Assembly: GCF_021631985.1 (NCBI RefSeq)
Contig: NZ_CP070225.1
Location: 4,898,001 to 4,962,000, forward strand
Direction of reading: 5' to 3'
DNA from: Sandaracinus amylolyticus
GTDB taxonomy: Bacteria > Myxococcota_A > Polyangia > Polyangiales > Sandaracinaceae
Length of the DNA: 64,000 nucleotides
Shown here piece by piece: positions 37,513-45,658 of this stretch. The position numbers were made by a program, and so were the translations under genes. Below the pieces are notes generated by a model. The model was given only the letters and a program-made list of their open reading frames with translations, was not told where the DNA came from and did not search any database. Position 1 is the stretch's first letter. The number at the start of each line of letters is the position of its first letter.

Positions 37513-39543
37513 CTAGCCCCCGTGTCCCGGGTTCGAAACCGGGTGGATACCCGCCTTGTGGAGAGCATCACGGATGCGCTGGATCGCCAGCTCTCTCGAG
37601 AGGTTCTCCTTGGAGAGGATCGACTCGGTCGTCTGGGCCAGGCGCTGGCGCTCCGCATCCCCCAGCGCGTGCGACGAGAGGATCACGACCGGGATCGGCC
37701 GCGTGCGCGGATCGGACTTCAGCGCGTCGATCACGTCGAACGCGGTCATGCGACCGGCCGACGGAGTCTCCTCGAGCAGGAAGTCGAGGATGATGACCTG
37801 CGGCTGCTGGTCGTGCGCGAGGCGCACGCCGTCGTGGCCCGTCGCTGCCTCGATCAGCTGGAACGAGGTTCCGTCGAGCAGCCGCCGCACGACATAGCGG
37901 GCGCGCTCGTCGTCGTCGATGACGAGCACCTTCGCCTGGCCCGCGCGCTTCGGGATCTGCTCGAGCCGGCGCAGCAGTCGATCTTGATCGAGCGGCTTGA
38001 GCCAGAACTCGTCGGCACCGAGCGCGCGCGCCTTCTGCTCGCGGTTCATCACCGTCACGACGAGCACCGGGATGTCGCGCGTCGCGGGGCTCGACTTCAC
38101 CTCGGAGAGGAACTCCCAGCTCGTCTCGCCCTCGAGCATGATGTCGAGGACGATCGCGGCCGGGTTCACCTCCGCGAGCAGCGCGCGCGCATCGGCGATC
38201 GAGCGCGCGGGGATCACCTGGTACCCGGCGAGCGAGAGGTAGCGCTCGTAGACGAAGATCGTCTTGCGGTCGTCCTCGACGACCAGCACCGGCTGGCGCG
38301 ACGGATCGCGCTGGCGACCACGCTCGCGGATCTCCTCGACGGTGCGCACCTCGGGGTGCACGCGCGGGATCACGAGCGTGAAGCGCGAGCCCTTGCCGAG
38401 CTCGCTCTCGACCTCGATCGCGCCGCCCAGCAGCTCCGCGAGCTTGCGCGAGAGCGGCAGGCCGAGGCCGGTGCCGCGCAGGTGGAGCGCGGCGGGCGCG
38501 CGATAGAACTCCTCGAACACGCGCGGCAGATCGGCGGGCGCGATGCCCATGCCGGTGTCGATCACCGAGACGCGCACCTCGTTGGACGATGCCGCGACGG
38601 CGACACGCACGTCGCCCCGCTCGGTGTACTTGAGGCCGTTGGTGATGAGGTTCCGGAGGATCTGCGCGACCTTGCCGCGATCGGTCTCCAGCAGGACCTC
38701 GTCGCGCGGCGCGTCGATCGAGAGCTGCACGCGATCACCCTCGGGGACCAGCGGGCGCAGCATGCCGCGCAGCGTCTCGAAGAGATCGGCGATCGCGAAC
38801 TTCGACGCGCGCACGCTCGCGATGCCCGACTCGAGGCGCGCGAGATCGAGCATGTCGTTCACGAGCAGCGCGAGCTCCTCCGCGGCCGAGCGCACGAAGC
38901 GCACCTGCGTGCGCTGCTCCTCGGAGAGCGGTCCGTCCGTCTCGTCGAGCAGGAGCTGCGAGAGCCCGAGGATCGAGTGGATCGGCGTGCGGAACTCGTG
39001 GCTCACGTTCGCGACGAGGCGCGACTTCACCTCGGCGCTGGTCGCCGCTTCTTCGGCGCGCTGCGCGAGCTCGTCGTGGAGCTGGACGATCCCGCGGTTC
39101 GACTCCGAGAGCTCGTGGTTGACGCGGAGCAGCTCGCGGCCCTGTCGCGCGAGCTCGCGGTTCAGCGCGTCGACCTCGCGCAGCGCGCCCGACGTCGAGC
39201 CCGACACTGCGACGAGGTCCTCGGGCAACACGCTCGCGAGGACCGCGAAGCCGGTGCCATCGGGCTCCGGCGCGCTCGCGCAGACGAGCGTCACCGGGCG
39301 ATCGCCCGCGAGCACGCAGAGCTCCCATCCCTCGAGAGGCTCGCGCGCAGCGCGCTCGCAGAAGATCCCGAGCTTCTCCTCGGCGCCGGGGCACGCGAGC
39401 TCGGTGAGCCGTTGACCCAGCCGCACGCCGAGGACGCGCAGCGCGCGGTCGTCACGCCACGTGATCACGGCCGACGCATCGCACGCGAGCGCGAGCTCCC
39501 GGCTGTGCCGTTCGACCAGTCGAGAGACGAGCGGCGAGCTCAC
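37513..39543 (-). CDS. Hybrid sensor histidine kinase with two C-terminal receivers
   Basis: A 676-residue soluble kinase. Residues 1-115 look like a PAS-type sensor region (SAVITWRDDRALRVLGVRLGQ). A coiled coil (120-170) leads to the HisKA box with H182 (RLVANVSHEFRTPIHSIL) and the ATPase (ILRNLITNGLKYTE, DTGMGIAPADLPRVFEEFYR, GTGLGLPLSRKLAELLGG). Two receivers follow, each with an intact Asp (AIVLDIMLE; VIILDFLLEE) and a Lys (WLKPLDQ; ILSKENLS). It is first in a two-kinase operon with the 35912 gene. The phosphorelay order is inferred. Confidence 0.92.
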   Translation of the reverse strand: MSSPLVSRLVERHSRELALACDASAVITWRDDRALRVLGVRLGQRLTELACPGAEEKLGIFCERAAREPLEGWELCVLAGDRPVTLVCASAPEPDGTGFAVLASVLPEDLVAVSGSTSGALREVDALNRELARQGRELLRVNHELSESNRGIVQLHDELAQRAEEAATSAEVKSRLVANVSHEFRTPIHSILGLSQLLLDETDGPLSEEQRTQVRFVRSAAEELALLVNDMLDLARLESGIASVRASKFAIADLFETLRGMLRPLVPEGDRVQLSIDAPRDEVLLETDRGKVAQILRNLITNGLKYTERGDVRVAVAASSNEVRVSVIDTGMGIAPADLPRVFEEFYRAPAALHLRGTGLGLPLSRKLAELLGGAIEVESELGKGSRFTLVIPRVHPEVRTVEEIRERGRQRDPSRQPVLVVEDDRKTIFVYERYLSLAGYQVIPARSIADARALLAEVNPAAIVLDIMLEGETSWEFLSEVKSSPATRDIPVLVVTVMNREQKARALGADEFWLKPLDQDRLLRRLEQIPKRAGQAKVLVIDDDERARYVVRRLLDGTSFQLIEAATGHDGVRLAHDQQPQVIILDFLLEETPSAGRMTAFDVIDALKSDPRTRPIPVVILSSHALGDAERQRLAQTTESILSKENLSRELAIQRIRDALHKAGIHPVSNPGHGG

Positions 39544-39738: not shown

Positions 39739-41091
39739 TCACGCACCGACGAGCGCGCCACCGCACACGCGCAGCACTTGGCCGGTCAGGCCGTGCGCGT
39801 GAGGCGTGGCGAGGAACGTGATCGCATGTGCGACGTCGTCGGGCTCGCCGCCCTGTCCGAGCGCCGCGAGACGACGGCCGGCCTCGCGGATCATCAGCGG
39901 GATCGCGGCGGTGAGGCGCGTCTCGATGAAGCCCGGGGCGATCGCGTTCACCGTGATGCCGCGCGACGCGAGCTGCGGCGCGAGCGCGCGCGCGAGGCCC
40001 GCGATGCCGGACTTCGACGCGGCGTAGTTGCTCTGCCCGACGTTGCCGGCGAGCCCCGCGATCGACGAGAGCAGGATCACGCGACCGCCGTCGCGCAGCG
40101 GGCCCTTCGCGAGCGCGTCGGTGATGCGCACCACCGCGCCGAGGTTCACGTCGACGGCCTGATCCCACTCCTTCGTCGACATCTTCGCGAGCGTGCGATC
40201 GCGGGTGATGCCCGCGTTGTGCACCACGATGTCGAGACCGCCGTGCGACTCCGTGATCGCGCGCGCGATGCGCGCCGGCGCGTCGGGATCGGTGATGTCG
40301 GCCGAGATGGTGCTGCCGCCGATCGAACGCGCGACCGCGAGCGTCTCTCGCTCGTCGTCGGGGCGATCGAGGAGCACCACGCGCGCGCCTTCGGCGGCGA
40401 GCAGGCGCGCGGTCGCCGCGCCGATGCCGCGCGCCGCGCCGGTGACCAGCGCGACCTTGCCGTGGAGCGAGCGCGCGCAAGCGATCTCGCCGGCGAGCGG
40501 CGCGGCGACGCGCGTGACGCGGAACGGCTGCGCGGTCACGAACGCCGAGCGCGCGCTCGCGAGGAACACGATCACGCCACGCGCGCGCTCCTCCGCGCCC
40601 TCGCCGACCACCACGAGGTTCGCAGTGGCGCCGCGGCGTCCGACCTCCTTCGCGACGCTGCGCACGAACCCGTCGAGCGCCTGCTGCGCAGCGGCGGCCT
40701 CGGGAGAGCCCATCGACTCCGGCGCGCGACCGATCACGATCACGCGCCCCGAGCGCGCGAGCTTCGCGACCGGTGCGTGCAGCGCATCGTAGAGCGAGCG
40801 CAGATCGGCGACGCGCGTCAGGCCCGTCGCGTCGACCACGAGCGCGCCGATCTTTCCTTCGCTCGGCGCCTCGGACAGCACGCGCGCGCCCGCGCCGCGG
40901 AGCACCTGCGCGACGACGTCGGACATCGGCCCGTGCAGCGCGATCACCGCGTCGAGCCCGGCGAGCTCCTGCTCGCGCCATGCACCTTCGGCCCGACGGA
41001 GCGGCTCGGGAACGGGCGATGGAAGCCCGATGCGCTGCACCAGGTTGCGCGCCACCGGGCGCTTCGCGATCTCCAGGAGTACGTCGCTCAT
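39739..41091 (-). CDS. fabG: Long-form 3-oxoacyl-ACP/CoA reductase (FabG4-type)
   Basis: A 450-residue high-molecular-weight FabG. The N-terminal half (residues 1-205) is a degenerate Rossmann domain without a complete cofactor loop. The C-terminal half is an active SDR: GKVALVTGAARGIGAATARLL, HNAGITRDRTLAKM, SSIAGLAGN and YAASKSG, with NAIAPGFIETRLT. Length and layout match mycobacterial FabG4. It would reduce 3-oxoacyl thioesters. It is the last gene of the operon with the MaoC hydratase (45 bp upstream) and acyl-CoA dehydrogenase. The start at 41091 has GGTGAG directly ahead. Confidence 0.9.
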   Translation of the reverse strand: MSDVLLEIAKRPVARNLVQRIGLPSPVPEPLRRAEGAWREQELAGLDAVIALHGPMSDVVAQVLRGAGARVLSEAPSEGKIGALVVDATGLTRVADLRSLYDALHAPVAKLARSGRVIVIGRAPESMGSPEAAAAQQALDGFVRSVAKEVGRRGATANLVVVGEGAEERARGVIVFLASARSAFVTAQPFRVTRVAAPLAGEIACARSLHGKVALVTGAARGIGAATARLLAAEGARVVLLDRPDDERETLAVARSIGGSTISADITDPDAPARIARAITESHGGLDIVVHNAGITRDRTLAKMSTKEWDQAVDVNLGAVVRITDALAKGPLRDGGRVILLSSIAGLAGNVGQSNYAASKSGIAGLARALAPQLASRGITVNAIAPGFIETRLTAAIPLMIREAGRRLAALGQGGEPDDVAHAITFLATPHAHGLTGQVLRVCGGALVGA

Positions 41092-41136
41092 CTCACCGTC
41101 TCCATCTCTCCAGCCCCTCACGTGCACGTGCTCGTT

Positions 41137-42003
41137 TCACCGGACCACGCGCCCTTCCATCACGACGCCGTCCTGCGCATCGACGACCCAGATCGCATCG
41201 CCGTCCGCGAGCACCCGCGCGCTCCCTGGCAGCACGAGCGGCCGCGTGAAGCGCGCATCGAGCTCGGCGAGCCCACCGCGCGCGCGACGCACGATCTCCC
41301 AGGCACGCGAGTAGGTCCCGAACCCGTGCAGGATCACGCCGCGGAACCCGCTCGCGCGCGCCCACGGACGTGCCCAGTGGATGGGATTGAAGTCGCCGGT
41401 GAGCAGCGCGAACTCCCACCCTGCGCGCGCCCCGACGTCGAAGCGCCCGAGCTCGCGCGCGCCCGCGCTCGCCTTCGGCGCTTCCTTCTTCGCGCCATCG
41501 CCCCGACGTCCCTTCGCGAGCGGCACGAACGCGCGCACCTCGGCGTTCACCAGCTGCGTCGCGCCCTCGACGCCCGTCGTGAAGCGCTGCGTGATCACCG
41601 CGCGCTTCCCGTCGTCGTCGATCGCCGCGAGCCGGCCGCGCACGATCAGGTCGCGACCGCGCGGGAGCTCGCCGCGCACCTCGAGCCGGCATCCCGCGTT
41701 CACCGCGCGCAGCAGCGGATACCGCAGCCCGCCGAGCAGCTCGCCGCTCATCGCGAACGCCCACTGCGGGAAGAGATGCGCGGGCACCGTGCCGTCGCGC
41801 GGCGCGCCCACTGCGTCGGCGTACGCATCGATCAGCGCGTCGGGCAGCGCGGGCACACGCCGCTCGAGCCACTCACCGGGCACGATCGGCGGCATGCCGC
41901 GGAGCGGCCCGGGCACGAGCCCCGCGAGCGCGAGCGAGCCCATCCCGCGCAGCGTGTCCCTCTGGAGCCGCGCGAAGCGCAGCGTCTCTTCGGTGGTGGT
42001 CAT
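41137..42003 (-). CDS. MaoC-like (R)-specific hydratase/dehydratase
   Basis: A 288-residue double hot-dog enzyme. The hydratase-2 motif is FALLTGDFNPIHWARPWARASGFRGVILHGFGT, with catalytic Asp and His in GDFNPIH. The length and its position next to a long FabG and an acyl-CoA dehydrogenase recall mycobacterial HtdX. It would (de)hydrate 3-hydroxyacyl thioesters. The ATG at 42003 is 4 bp from the acyl-CoA dehydrogenase stop; an in-frame start at 42039 would overlap that gene. Confidence 0.88.
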   Translation of the reverse strand: MTTTEETLRFARLQRDTLRGMGSLALAGLVPGPLRGMPPIVPGEWLERRVPALPDALIDAYADAVGAPRDGTVPAHLFPQWAFAMSGELLGGLRYPLLRAVNAGCRLEVRGELPRGRDLIVRGRLAAIDDDGKRAVITQRFTTGVEGATQLVNAEVRAFVPLAKGRRGDGAKKEAPKASAGARELGRFDVGARAGWEFALLTGDFNPIHWARPWARASGFRGVILHGFGTYSRAWEIVRRARGGLAELDARFTRPLVLPGSARVLADGDAIWVVDAQDGVVMEGRVVR

Positions 42004-42007
42004 CGCT

Positions 42008-43957
42008 TCACTCCGCTGCTTCGCGGTGGACCGCCGCACCCACGTCGTGACCGAGCTTCGCGAGCAGGCGATCGCCGGTCGTCGTGATCTCGTCGAGCAG
42101 GAAGCGCACGCGCGGCTCGGCGCGCTCGAGGTGACGCTCGAGGATCTCGCGGCGCGCCGGATCCTTCTTCGACTGCTCGAGGAGGATCTCGCCGATCGCC
42201 TCGTCGCAGAGGATGCGCGTGAGGCGCTCCGCGTGGAGCATCGCGAACGCGAAATCGCGCTTGGGATCCCAGTTCTTCGCGAAGCGATCGGCCCACTCGG
42301 TGATCGGCACGTCTCTCCCAGCCAACACAGCGCCCAGGCCGCGCAGCTTGTCGCTCGCGGTGCGCATGATCAGGTGCTGCTGCGCCTGGTGCGACATCGC
42401 CTGGATGCGCGCGAGCTTCTTCTCGAGCCCGTCGCGCGCGCTCACCGCGCGCCACCGCGCCTGCGCGCCGCGACGCACGAAGCGCTGCGGGTTCTTGATG
42501 ATCCCGCCGAGCGTGTCCTTCATCGCCATGAGCGCCTGGATCTGCGAGGTGCCCTCGTAGATCGGCATCACCATCGCGTCGCGCAGCAGCTTCTCCGCGC
42601 CGTACTCGGTCGTGTAGCCGACTCCGCCGTGGATCTGCACGCAGCGCCTTCCCATCTCGACCGCCTTCTCGGCGCCGAGGTACTTGAGCAGCGGCGTGAC
42701 GCGACGCGCGGCGCGACGATGACGCGCGGCCTTCTTCTCGATCGCCTTGCGCTCCTCGGCCGAGAGATCGCCGCGGAACTTCAGCTGCAGGCCGAGCTTC
42801 TGGCCCATCTCCTCGTGGAACACGCCCTCGACGCAGAGCGCGCGGATGCCCGCGACGTCCGTCTTCATCTCCTCGAGGTAGTCCGCGATCATCTCGTGGC
42901 GATCGATGGTCTTGCCCATCGATCGACGCTGCGCCGCGTACTCCTCGGCCAGGCGGATCGCGGCCTCGCAGAGGCCCACGCACTCGAAGCCGACGCCCAC
43001 GCGGGCGCCGTTCATCAGCGTGAGCATGTACTCGAAGCCCTCGCCCCTCTTGCCGATCAGCATCGCGGGCGCGCGCTCGAACGCGAGCGCCGCGGTGACC
43101 GACGCGTGGTGCCCGAGCTTCTCCTCGACGCGCTCGAGCGTGACCACGCGACGGCGCGTTCCGTCGGGCAGATCCTCGTAGGTCGGCACGAGGAACATCG
43201 AGAGGCCCTTGAGGCCCGCGAAGGGATCGTCGGGCGCGCCCGCCTTCTCGGTCCGCGCGATCACGAAGTGCCACTTCCCGTGGCCCGACGTGATGAAGAT
43301 CTTCTGGCCGGTGACGAACCAGTTGCCCTTCTCGTCCTGCTCACCGACCGCGCGCAGCTGCGCCATGTCGCTGCCGGCGTCGGGCTCGGTGATGTCCATG
43401 CAGCCCCACGACTCGCCGCGCGCGATCTCGCGGATGACGTTCTCGAAGCGCGTCTTCTTGATCTCGCCGGTCGTGGGATCGACCTCGGTCGTGCCCTCGC
43501 GGATCGAGAACATGAGCGCCGCGAGCGCCATGCCTCCGTGGAAGCCGTGGTGCGCCATCGTGCTGACGTCGGCGCGCCCGAAGATCTCGCTCGCCAGGTA
43601 GTAGAGCGCGAGCGGCGCGTTCATGCCGCCGAGCTCGCGCGGCACGCAGAGGCCGTGCAGCTCCATCTGCTTGATCCGATCGAAGATGCCCTGGAGGAAG
43701 TCGGGCAGGCGCGCCTCGCCCTTCTCGAAGATCACCGCCTCGCGATCGATGCGCGCGACGTGCGGCGCGATCTCGTCGGCGACGAACTGACCGACCATGT
43801 CGGCGATCTCGAGGTAGAGCTCGGTCGCTTCCTCCGTGCTCTTCGGGCCGCCGGGGCTCCGGAACTCGTGCTCGGTCACGCGCACCAGCGCGTCCCAGTC
43901 GAGCCCCTTCTCGAAGTACCAGCGGAGGTCGTCGTTGTCCTTGTAGAAGTTGCCCAT
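42008..43957 (-). CDS. Acyl-CoA dehydrogenase (FadE5-like, extended)
   Basis: A 649-residue FAD-dependent dehydrogenase that makes 2-enoyl-CoA. Visible hallmarks: EPDAGSDMAQLRAVG, FVTGQKIFITSGHGKW, RVGVGFECVGLCEAAIRLAEEYAAQR, VQIHGGVGYTTEY, and YEGTSQIQ with the catalytic Glu. It has about 200 residues more than short-chain enzymes, with an extra C-terminal helical domain, as in the FadE5 group. The N-terminus has no signal peptide. It is the second gene of the TetR-led operon, 18 bp after the regulator. Confidence 0.92.
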   Translation of the reverse strand: MGNFYKDNDDLRWYFEKGLDWDALVRVTEHEFRSPGGPKSTEEATELYLEIADMVGQFVADEIAPHVARIDREAVIFEKGEARLPDFLQGIFDRIKQMELHGLCVPRELGGMNAPLALYYLASEIFGRADVSTMAHHGFHGGMALAALMFSIREGTTEVDPTTGEIKKTRFENVIREIARGESWGCMDITEPDAGSDMAQLRAVGEQDEKGNWFVTGQKIFITSGHGKWHFVIARTEKAGAPDDPFAGLKGLSMFLVPTYEDLPDGTRRRVVTLERVEEKLGHHASVTAALAFERAPAMLIGKRGEGFEYMLTLMNGARVGVGFECVGLCEAAIRLAEEYAAQRRSMGKTIDRHEMIADYLEEMKTDVAGIRALCVEGVFHEEMGQKLGLQLKFRGDLSAEERKAIEKKAARHRRAARRVTPLLKYLGAEKAVEMGRRCVQIHGGVGYTTEYGAEKLLRDAMVMPIYEGTSQIQALMAMKDTLGGIIKNPQRFVRRGAQARWRAVSARDGLEKKLARIQAMSHQAQQHLIMRTASDKLRGLGAVLAGRDVPITEWADRFAKNWDPKRDFAFAMLHAERLTRILCDEAIGEILLEQSKKDPARREILERHLERAEPRVRFLLDEITTTGDRLLAKLGHDVGAAVHREAAE

Positions 43958-43975: not shown

Positions 43976-44653
43976 TCAGCCAGCCATCAGCGCCGCACGC
44001 GCGACGCGCTTGATCTCGTTCGCGATGCGCGCGGGGAGCTTCGTCCCCGTGCTCCGCGACCCGTTGCTCCCGCGCGCAGCGGCGAGCATCGACACCGTGC
44101 CGGTGGTCGCGACGTTTCCGATCACCAGGTGGATCACCATCACCACGTAGGCCTCGGGATCGACGTCGGCGCGCAGCGCCCCCGCGCTCTGACCGCGCTG
44201 GATCGACTCGGTCACCACCGCCATCCACGGCGACGCGTACGTCGCGAGCAGCGCGCGCATCGCGTCGGGACGATCGAGCGCCTCGCGCAGGAGCAAGCGC
44301 GCGCGATCGGGATCCTCGGCGAAGAACGCGATGGTCTCGTCGAGCACCGCGTCGAAGCGATCCTCGCGCGTCGCGGCGCGCATCAGCGCGGGCAGCGCCT
44401 CGTTCCAGCGCGAGAGGAGCGCGTCGAGCACCGCGCGGTGCAGCTCGTCCTTGCTCGCGAAGTGCCAGAGCAGCGAGGGCTTCCGCATCCCGACCGCGTC
44501 GGCGATGTCCTGCAGCGAGGTCGCGTCGAGGCCCTTCTGCGCGATGAGCTTCGTCGCGGCGCGGAGGATTCGATCACGCGCGTCCGGCTCGGGCCGCGGC
44601 TTCGCGTCGGCCTTCTTCGGTGCGCTGCTGCGACGGCTTGCAGGGGTTGCCAC
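43976..44653 (-). CDS. TetR-family regulator of the fatty-acid operon
   Basis: A 225-residue repressor. The HTH is DRILRAATKLIAQKGLDATSLQDIADAVGMRKPSLLWHFASKDELHRAVLDALL, residues about 27-80, preceded by a basic Ala/Lys tail. The ligand domain is all-helical; an acyl-CoA ligand is likely given the downstream genes but unproven. It starts with GTG at 44653. A long palindrome overlapping its own promoter (44662-44697) suggests autoregulation of the whole operon. Confidence 0.9.
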   Translation of the reverse strand: MATPASRRSSAPKKADAKPRPEPDARDRILRAATKLIAQKGLDATSLQDIADAVGMRKPSLLWHFASKDELHRAVLDALLSRWNEALPALMRAATREDRFDAVLDETIAFFAEDPDRARLLLREALDRPDAMRALLATYASPWMAVVTESIQRGQSAGALRADVDPEAYVVMVIHLVIGNVATTGTVSMLAAARGSNGSRSTGTKLPARIANEIKRVARAALMAG

Positions 44654-44661
44654 GACTCTCC

Positions 44662-44697
44662 CTAACGCTCGGTCGGGAGATCCCTACCACTCGTTAG
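44662..44697. promoter_or_regulatory. TetR operator candidate overlapping the operon promoter
   Basis: An imperfect 36-bp palindrome: CTAACG...GGT.GGGA and TCCC.ACC...CGTTAG, 13 of 17 arm positions complementary. The left end overlaps the TTAGGG/TAGGGA box that would be the -10 for the GTG at 44653. The spaced, layered symmetry (outer 6, then 3, then 4 bp) is what two TetR dimers or one large footprint would give. Confidence 0.6.
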
Positions 44698-44803
44698 AGG
44701 AAGTCGCAAGCGACGGAACGACTGGGTCCCACACCGCGGGACTTGTCGGCGCGCGCGAGCGGATCGCGATCAACTCGGAACACCGAGGAAACACTCGTTG
44801 CGC

Positions 44804-44815: not shown

Positions 44816-45658
44816 GTGCCTTATCGCACGGACGCCTCGGCGCTCGGGCGAGAGCGAGCGCGAATGCTCGCCGAGCTCAAGGATCTCGAGTCGCGCTTCA
44901 CCGACGTGTTCTGGCAAGAGCTCGCCGCGGGGCTCGGAGTCTCGCGATGGAGCCTCGAGGACGTCCCTCGCAGCGCGGAGCTCGCGGCACGTGATGCGCT
45001 GATGCGCAGCGAGGCCGCCCGGAGCACGCGCCTCGAAGATCAGGTCGCGGAGCTGGGCGTGCGCATCGCCGCGCTCGAGCGCGTGATCGCGCGATGGAGC
45101 TCGCTCACTCGCGCGTGGCGTCGCCCTTCGTCGCGCGCGCCGCGTGGTGATGGATCGCGCAGCGGCGGCGCCGATCCGACGGTCGAGACGGTGCTCGCGC
45201 GCGAGCGCATCGAGTCGATGTTGCGCGAGCTGCGCCCTCGCCTGCCGATCGACGTGCGCGTGAAGCCGAACGGCGCGCTGCGCGTGCACTGGGCGATCGC
45301 GACCTCGGCGCCGCGCGGGATCGGCGCGGTGCGGCTCGAGCCCGAGCGACTGCTCGACGATCTGCGCAAGGTCGCTGGCGTGCTCACCGACATCGACGTG
45401 GGCGACGACCGCTTCGACGGCGCGTTCCTGGTGCGCGGCCACGAGCCGACGGTGCGCAGCGTGCTCGATCACGAGACGCGCGGGCGCTTGCTCCGGCTCG
45501 ACGCGCGCTGCGCGGATCTGCGCGTGGACGTCGATGGCGGCGAGGCGGTGGTGCGCATGCACTCGTCGCCGACGCTGGAGCTGCTCGAGGACGCGCTCGC
45601 GGTGCTGGCGCGGCTGCGTCGCGCGCCGGTGCGTCCGCTGCGCTACGACGACGTCTGA
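44816..45658 (+). CDS. Hypothetical protein with coiled coil, 280 aa
   Basis: A protein with an N-terminal helical/coiled-coil half (RERARMLAELKDLESRF... RLEDQVAELGVRIAALERVIARW), a low-complexity Arg/Ser linker, and a C-terminal alpha/beta region (RLPIDVRVKPNGALRVHWAIATS; DGGEAVVRMHSSPTLELLEDALAVLARL). No membrane segment or known family. The GTG at 44816 fits the leaderless pattern; TTG at 44798 with a Shine-Dalgarno would add six residues. It is divergent from the TetR operon, so that operator may also affect it. Repeat copy 3 begins right after its stop. Confidence 0.6.
   Translation: MPYRTDASALGRERARMLAELKDLESRFTDVFWQELAAGLGVSRWSLEDVPRSAELAARDALMRSEAARSTRLEDQVAELGVRIAALERVIARWSSLTRAWRRPSSRAPRGDGSRSGGADPTVETVLARERIESMLRELRPRLPIDVRVKPNGALRVHWAIATSAPRGIGAVRLEPERLLDDLRKVAGVLTDIDVGDDRFDGAFLVRGHEPTVRSVLDHETRGRLLRLDARCADLRVDVDGGEAVVRMHSSPTLELLEDALAVLARLRRAPVRPLRYDDV

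Follow-up and report, generated by a model that had tools for sequence, protein, structure and literature searches.

What recognizes the inverted repeat upstream of a tetR gene in Sandaracinus amylolyticus, and which genes does it serve? In the 64,000-nucleotide stretch of this genome that we analysed (hereafter, the window), the repeat occupies positions 44662-44697, reads CTAACGCTCGGTCGGGAGATCCCTACCACTCGTTAG on the plus strand and matches in 13 of its 18 base pairs. An initial annotation described it as a layered palindrome of 36 bp that serves as the operator of the adjacent TetR protein and possibly also of the divergent gene at 44816. Our analysis suggests with high confidence that the repeat consists of two tandem operators, that they belong to the TetR protein whose gene starts 8 bases downstream, and that their role is autoregulatory and pathway-specific. 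It is most likely a clear but ordinary genetic switch, in an arrangement common to related myxobacteria.

Four genes follow the element on the minus strand, their open frames overlapping or slightly gapped, and we infer that they are transcribed as a single operon. The first encodes a TetR-family repressor of 225 aa with a GTG start (43976-44653; TetR_N 2.7e-16, 59.5 bits against a cut-off of 24; TetR_C_29 8.5e-11). It is followed by an acyl-CoA dehydrogenase of 649 aa (42008-43957), a MaoC-like hydratase (41137-42039; MaoC_dehydratas 6e-12) and a 3-oxoacyl-ACP reductase of the PRK08261 type (39739-41127; NF006110, 521.6 bits against a cut-off of 410), which we take to be FabG4-like. The set is presumed to be a beta-oxidation operon. 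A relative of the dehydrogenase is present in 63 of the 76 tetR loci compared below, in all 63 on the same strand as tetR. Downstream of the operon, also on the minus strand, lies a histidine kinase with receiver domains (37513-39543), for which no relative was found in the available flanks of the 76 tetR loci.

Two putative operators and their presumed promoter

The symmetry of the element is rare in its full form and common in its simpler forms. The window contains the complete layered pattern, with six outer, three middle and four inner pairs at the same positions, once, whereas first-order Markov sequences (n = 100) average 0.04 copies. Plain 36-bp stretches with at least 13 of 18 pairs number 74 (Markov mean 39), and six-base arms at the same distance number 90 (Markov mean 78). 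Because such stretches and arms are common in the window, the palindrome score alone is unconvincing; what makes the predicted element convincing is its conservation in relatives. A repeat search also found a weak extension of the palindrome to 44653-44706, with 26-nt arms at 73%.

Read on the minus strand, the element is CTAACGAGTGGTAG-GGATCTCC-CGACCGAGCGTTAG, and its anatomy is best described as two tandem 14-bp palindromes, each a predicted TetR operator, 22 bp apart from centre to centre. The larger palindrome is visible because the two units stand in tandem and each is itself palindromic. Putative site 1, CTAACGAGTGGTAG, is promoter-proximal (44684-44697, minus strand); putative site 2, CGACCGAGCGTTAG, ends 8 bases before the tetR start codon (44662-44675, minus strand). 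Between them lies a spacer (GGATCTCC on the minus strand; 44676-44683), whose 8-bp length is conserved in relatives while its sequence is free, as seen in 21 aligned sequences. The inner GGGA/TCCC pairs fall at and in this variable spacer.

The promoter position is presumptive; a consensus scan found no sigma-70 promoter at the locus. The sequence TTGCGA (44704-44709, minus strand) is our presumed -35 element: among 59 distinct loci, 45 have a TTGM 11-12 bases ahead of site 1. If TTGCGA is the -35, the -10 would fall at the end of site 1, where TAGGGA (44681-44686, minus strand), a poor consensus match at a spacing of 17 bases, is the presumed -10 region. Site 1 would then probably lie between the -35 and the -10, and site 2 downstream of the -10, near the start codon. 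Overlap of the element with the -10 of the tetR promoter, as originally proposed, is thus plausible.

Conservation and distribution of the pair

TetR orthologs were found in 33 of 56 relative genomes at E values of 1.8e-36 or below, followed by a gap to 1.4e-22, and we compared the sequence upstream of 30 of these orthologs. The consensus before orthologous tetR genes is CTACCRNNYGGTAG-N8-CTACCRNNYGGTAG, with the units mostly 22 bp apart; none of 600 shuffled regions from this first set reached 19 of 24 letters at that distance. From the 21 aligned sequences, which leave out L004 (a copy of L003) and L020 (a chance-level pair), we built a profile of 36 positions for the pair. It matched exactly one place in 25 of the 56 relatives, each time before the tetR ortholog, under strict filters that may lose weak matches. 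Four of the 25 matched genomes lie outside the profile (G009, G023, G039 and G042), and G009 is identical to G007 there. Eight of the 33 orthologs have no profile match: six carry a single, weaker or differently spaced site (23 bp in L019, 34 bp in L029), and two, L007 and L030, have no site upstream of tetR.

A larger set of 80 named tetR loci, from which L159-L162 (Streptomyces and Frankia; partial matches) were dropped to leave 76, gave a distance-resolved view; it overlaps the ortholog set (L087 and L004, for example), and the two sets are not independent. By title, Myxococcota or Deltaproteobacteria assembled from metagenomes make up most of the 76 records; the others include a few strains (Plesiocystis, Enhygromyxa, Paraliomyxa) and some entries labelled Planctomycetota, Phycisphaerae or Hydrogenedentota. 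Plesiocystis pacifica, a cultured relative, has the locus as L123. A strong site, with at least 10 of 12 letters and no more than 300 bases before tetR, is present in 75 of the 76, which bears out the expected conservation in relatives. Exactly 22 bp from the strongest site, 58 loci have a second site with a score of at least 8, and 18 lack a good one. Every other centre distance from 16 to 44 bp is found in a mean of 1.7 loci and at most 8, the next commonest being 18, 26 and 44 bp (8, 7 and 8 loci), of which the 18- and 26-bp distances are perhaps echoes of the palindrome. By joint score, 61 of the 76 loci have the 22-bp pair, 59 of them distinct. These counts replace an earlier one, in which 73 of the 76 loci had a pair with a score of at least 19 at some distance between 16 and 44 bp; that count was unsafe because its shuffle control (1 of 380) also destroys the strong site, and a strong site with a chance partner may pass.

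Several loci depart from the common layout. L024 and L027 (G034 and G046) carry a solitary site 21-27 bp upstream of the tetR match in addition to a tandem pair roughly 165-170 bp upstream of it, a layout suggestive of two promoters. In L146, L152 and matches in G167 and G168, the operators are packed differently, at a distance of 18 bp and overlapped by an extra half-site (CAACCGAACGGTTGGTAG). In L144 and L020, tetR is divergent from MaoC-FabG, and a weaker site stands at either end of the intervening gap.

The pair is also found away from tetR. A pattern search for it gave matches in 47 of the 317 genomes searched in the class and in 28 of a sample of 377 from the phylum; with the reversed control, either search hit one genome. 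Five genomes have two such places (G196, G197, G200, G528 and G573). In G196 (L177) and G200 (L179), a MaoC-FabG unit separate from tetR-acyl-CoA dehydrogenase has the second pair at its start. In G573, tetR lies beside FabG (L186), and a detached acyl-CoA dehydrogenase, 55% identical, has a pair just before its start (L185). Because detached pathway units in these three genomes have their own pair, the site appears tied to the pathway independently of tetR. One of the two pairs in G197 (L182) and both in G528 (L183 and L184) lie by unrelated-looking genes: a protein kinase, an OmpA-family gene and genes without a Pfam family, with no tetR or pathway gene of the present type detected nearby. 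At 2540-2680 of L184, three related sites follow one another in steps of about 22 bp before an open reading frame without a Pfam family.

In the S. amylolyticus genome itself, the pair profile finds a single place, upstream of tetR. The initial annotation had suggested a scan for CTAACG-N24-CGTTAG at other fatty-acid genes; the window holds no other copy. Across the genome, CTAACGNNNGGTNG finds the present element twice and one other place, against 12 for the reversed control, and a search for the single site CTAMCRNNYGKTAG with at most one mismatch yields 35 places where the reversed pattern yields 161. As single-site matches are fewer than in the reversed control, neither the pair profile nor the single-site scan makes a wider regulon visible in this genome, solitary weak sites being possible.

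Could the site instead act on the divergent gene at 44816, alone or together with tetR? The gene shares the intergenic region with the element and lies beside tetR also in G001, where the arrangement is kept. Apart from G001, we found no relative of it beside tetR: a tblastn search at E 1e-10 of the flanks of the 76 loci (reaching a median of 4,000 bases upstream, and less than 1,000 in three) returned none. Its nearest homologs in G005, G007 and G009, perhaps relatives of a paralog also present in the S. amylolyticus genome, have 30-36% identity and are on contigs separate from that of tetR, while the operator is retained. The end of the operator is moreover 118 bp from the GTG start of the gene. 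We therefore consider control of this gene improbable, and the suggestion that it shares the operator is not supported by the comparison.

Half-site variation and the recognition helix

Certain positions of the TetR recognition helix vary together with the bases at the ends of the sites. Where a His precedes the HF/HY of the helix, sites end in T/A in 9 of 12 combinations, compared with 1 of 40 without the His (Fisher p 5.6e-7 over 52 distinct helix-site combinations, a value that ignores shared descent; most His proteins look like one group). The test omits loci whose best site falls below 11 of 12, and six for which no helix was parsed. The helix residues compared face the DNA in other TetR structures.

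The CTAAC outer half-sites of the window are unusual; G007, for comparison, has CTACC sites. Among the 59 distinct named loci, AAC occurs in an outer half-site only in L155, and there in both; the window and G001 likewise have AAC in both. G545, from the phylum search, is identical to L155 in these letters and possibly represents that genome again. The change from CTACC to CTAAC in both outer half-sites is thus seen in two lineages, the window's genus and L155/G545, with no intermediate: no match with only one outer half-site changed appeared in the named loci or in the class and phylum searches. In the parsed helices, Met at the helix start is shared by both CTAAC lineages, and Trp is found only in the window's genus. 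A reading of low probability is that the outer half-sites of the two operators evolve as one unit, which would mean two cooperating dimers whose outer subunits set specificity and a compensating change in the helix (Met at the helix start in both lineages, Trp for Tyr in the window's genus). If true, nature would have recorded at this locus how an operator and its repressor evolve together; two events do not suffice for a conclusion. Met at the helix start was also considered as the cause of CTAAC and was not established, as L145 and L020/L144 have Met without the change.

The parallel change of both outer half-sites, in the window's genus and in L155/G545, speaks for a further alternative, that the 36 bp are one binding unit in which a higher-order TetR complex, with overlapping dimers of the QacR type, reads the arms together with the inner layers. 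The full symmetry of the element here, inner GGGA/TCCC included, would also fit such a complex. Against it, every 14-mer is palindromic alone, some orthologs have a lone 14-mer or other distances, and the spacer sequence is unconserved in relatives, for which reason we rejected the single palindrome as the unit. A single 36-bp unit is therefore very unlikely: the outer, middle and inner pairs are present as initially annotated, and the layered unit they were thought to form is not what relatives conserve. Least probable is a leader-RNA hairpin or terminator that acts on the transcript without a protein site, as the presence of inverted repeats close to the operon's 5' end might suggest, since the sites keep a 22-bp tandem spacing, overlap the presumed -10 and co-vary with the TetR helix, no terminator was found at the locus, and a 14-mer would form a short stem only.

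Proposed switch and comparison with known systems

The tandem operators thus remain our preferred reading. The assignment of the element to the adjacent TetR, made at the outset, gains support from conservation before orthologs, from the restriction of the pair to tetR in the profile-matched relatives, from the detached pathway genes and from helix co-variation; these ties, like the tandem sites and their usual spacing, were computed. The mechanism that we propose draws on analogy with the TetR family. As the operator centres are 22 bp, or about two helical turns, apart, two TetR dimers would sit on one face of the DNA. From the positions of sites 1 and 2 around the -10, bound TetR would block RNA polymerase and so keep tetR, the acyl-CoA dehydrogenase, the MaoC hydratase and the 3-oxoacyl reductase off. 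An acyl-CoA or enoyl-CoA of the pathway would be the most likely ligand to release the repressor, as the operon content alone suggests.

The analysis gives a regulator, an operator code and target genes for the presumed beta-oxidation operon of many Polyangia and of a few records from other groups. The natural repressor-operator pairs with matched changes (CTACC, TTACC and CTAAC half-sites) offer material for testing how DNA specificity shifts in TetR proteins, and they are possible repressor parts. In the literature searched, covered mostly at the level of abstracts, we found this regulator nowhere described.

Among the TetR-family proteins that regulate fatty-acid genes are FadR of Bacillus and Thermus, PsrA and FadP. 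As here, FadR, PsrA and FadP each combine a TetR protein tied to fatty-acid degradation genes with a palindromic operator. NCBIfam equivalog scores do not place our protein among the orthologs of FadR- or PsrA-type regulators, as no cut-off is reached (24.5 bits of 200 for Bacillus FadR, 37.2 of 300 for Vibrio PsrA). An operator near several fatty-acid operons, a trait of FadR and PsrA, is not seen in the S. amylolyticus genome, whereas three other genomes have a second pathway operator. The RutR operator, TTGACCANNTGGTCAA, has the core ACCANNTGGT, which is the same in many relatives here; the protein scores 48.1 bits of 368 against RutR, which controls other genes. The scale of regulation also differs: for PsrA and FadP, the table in PMC5343134 gives averages of 11 to 18 genes per genome, compared with one operator place in the S. 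amylolyticus genome.

In its architecture, the element resembles TetR/tetO and QacR, in which a single promoter region likewise has a pair of operators or of dimers. The QacR dimers overlap, their centres being separated by about 6 bp, and the tet operators are about 30 bp apart between divergent promoters; the 22-bp centre distance found here differs from both.
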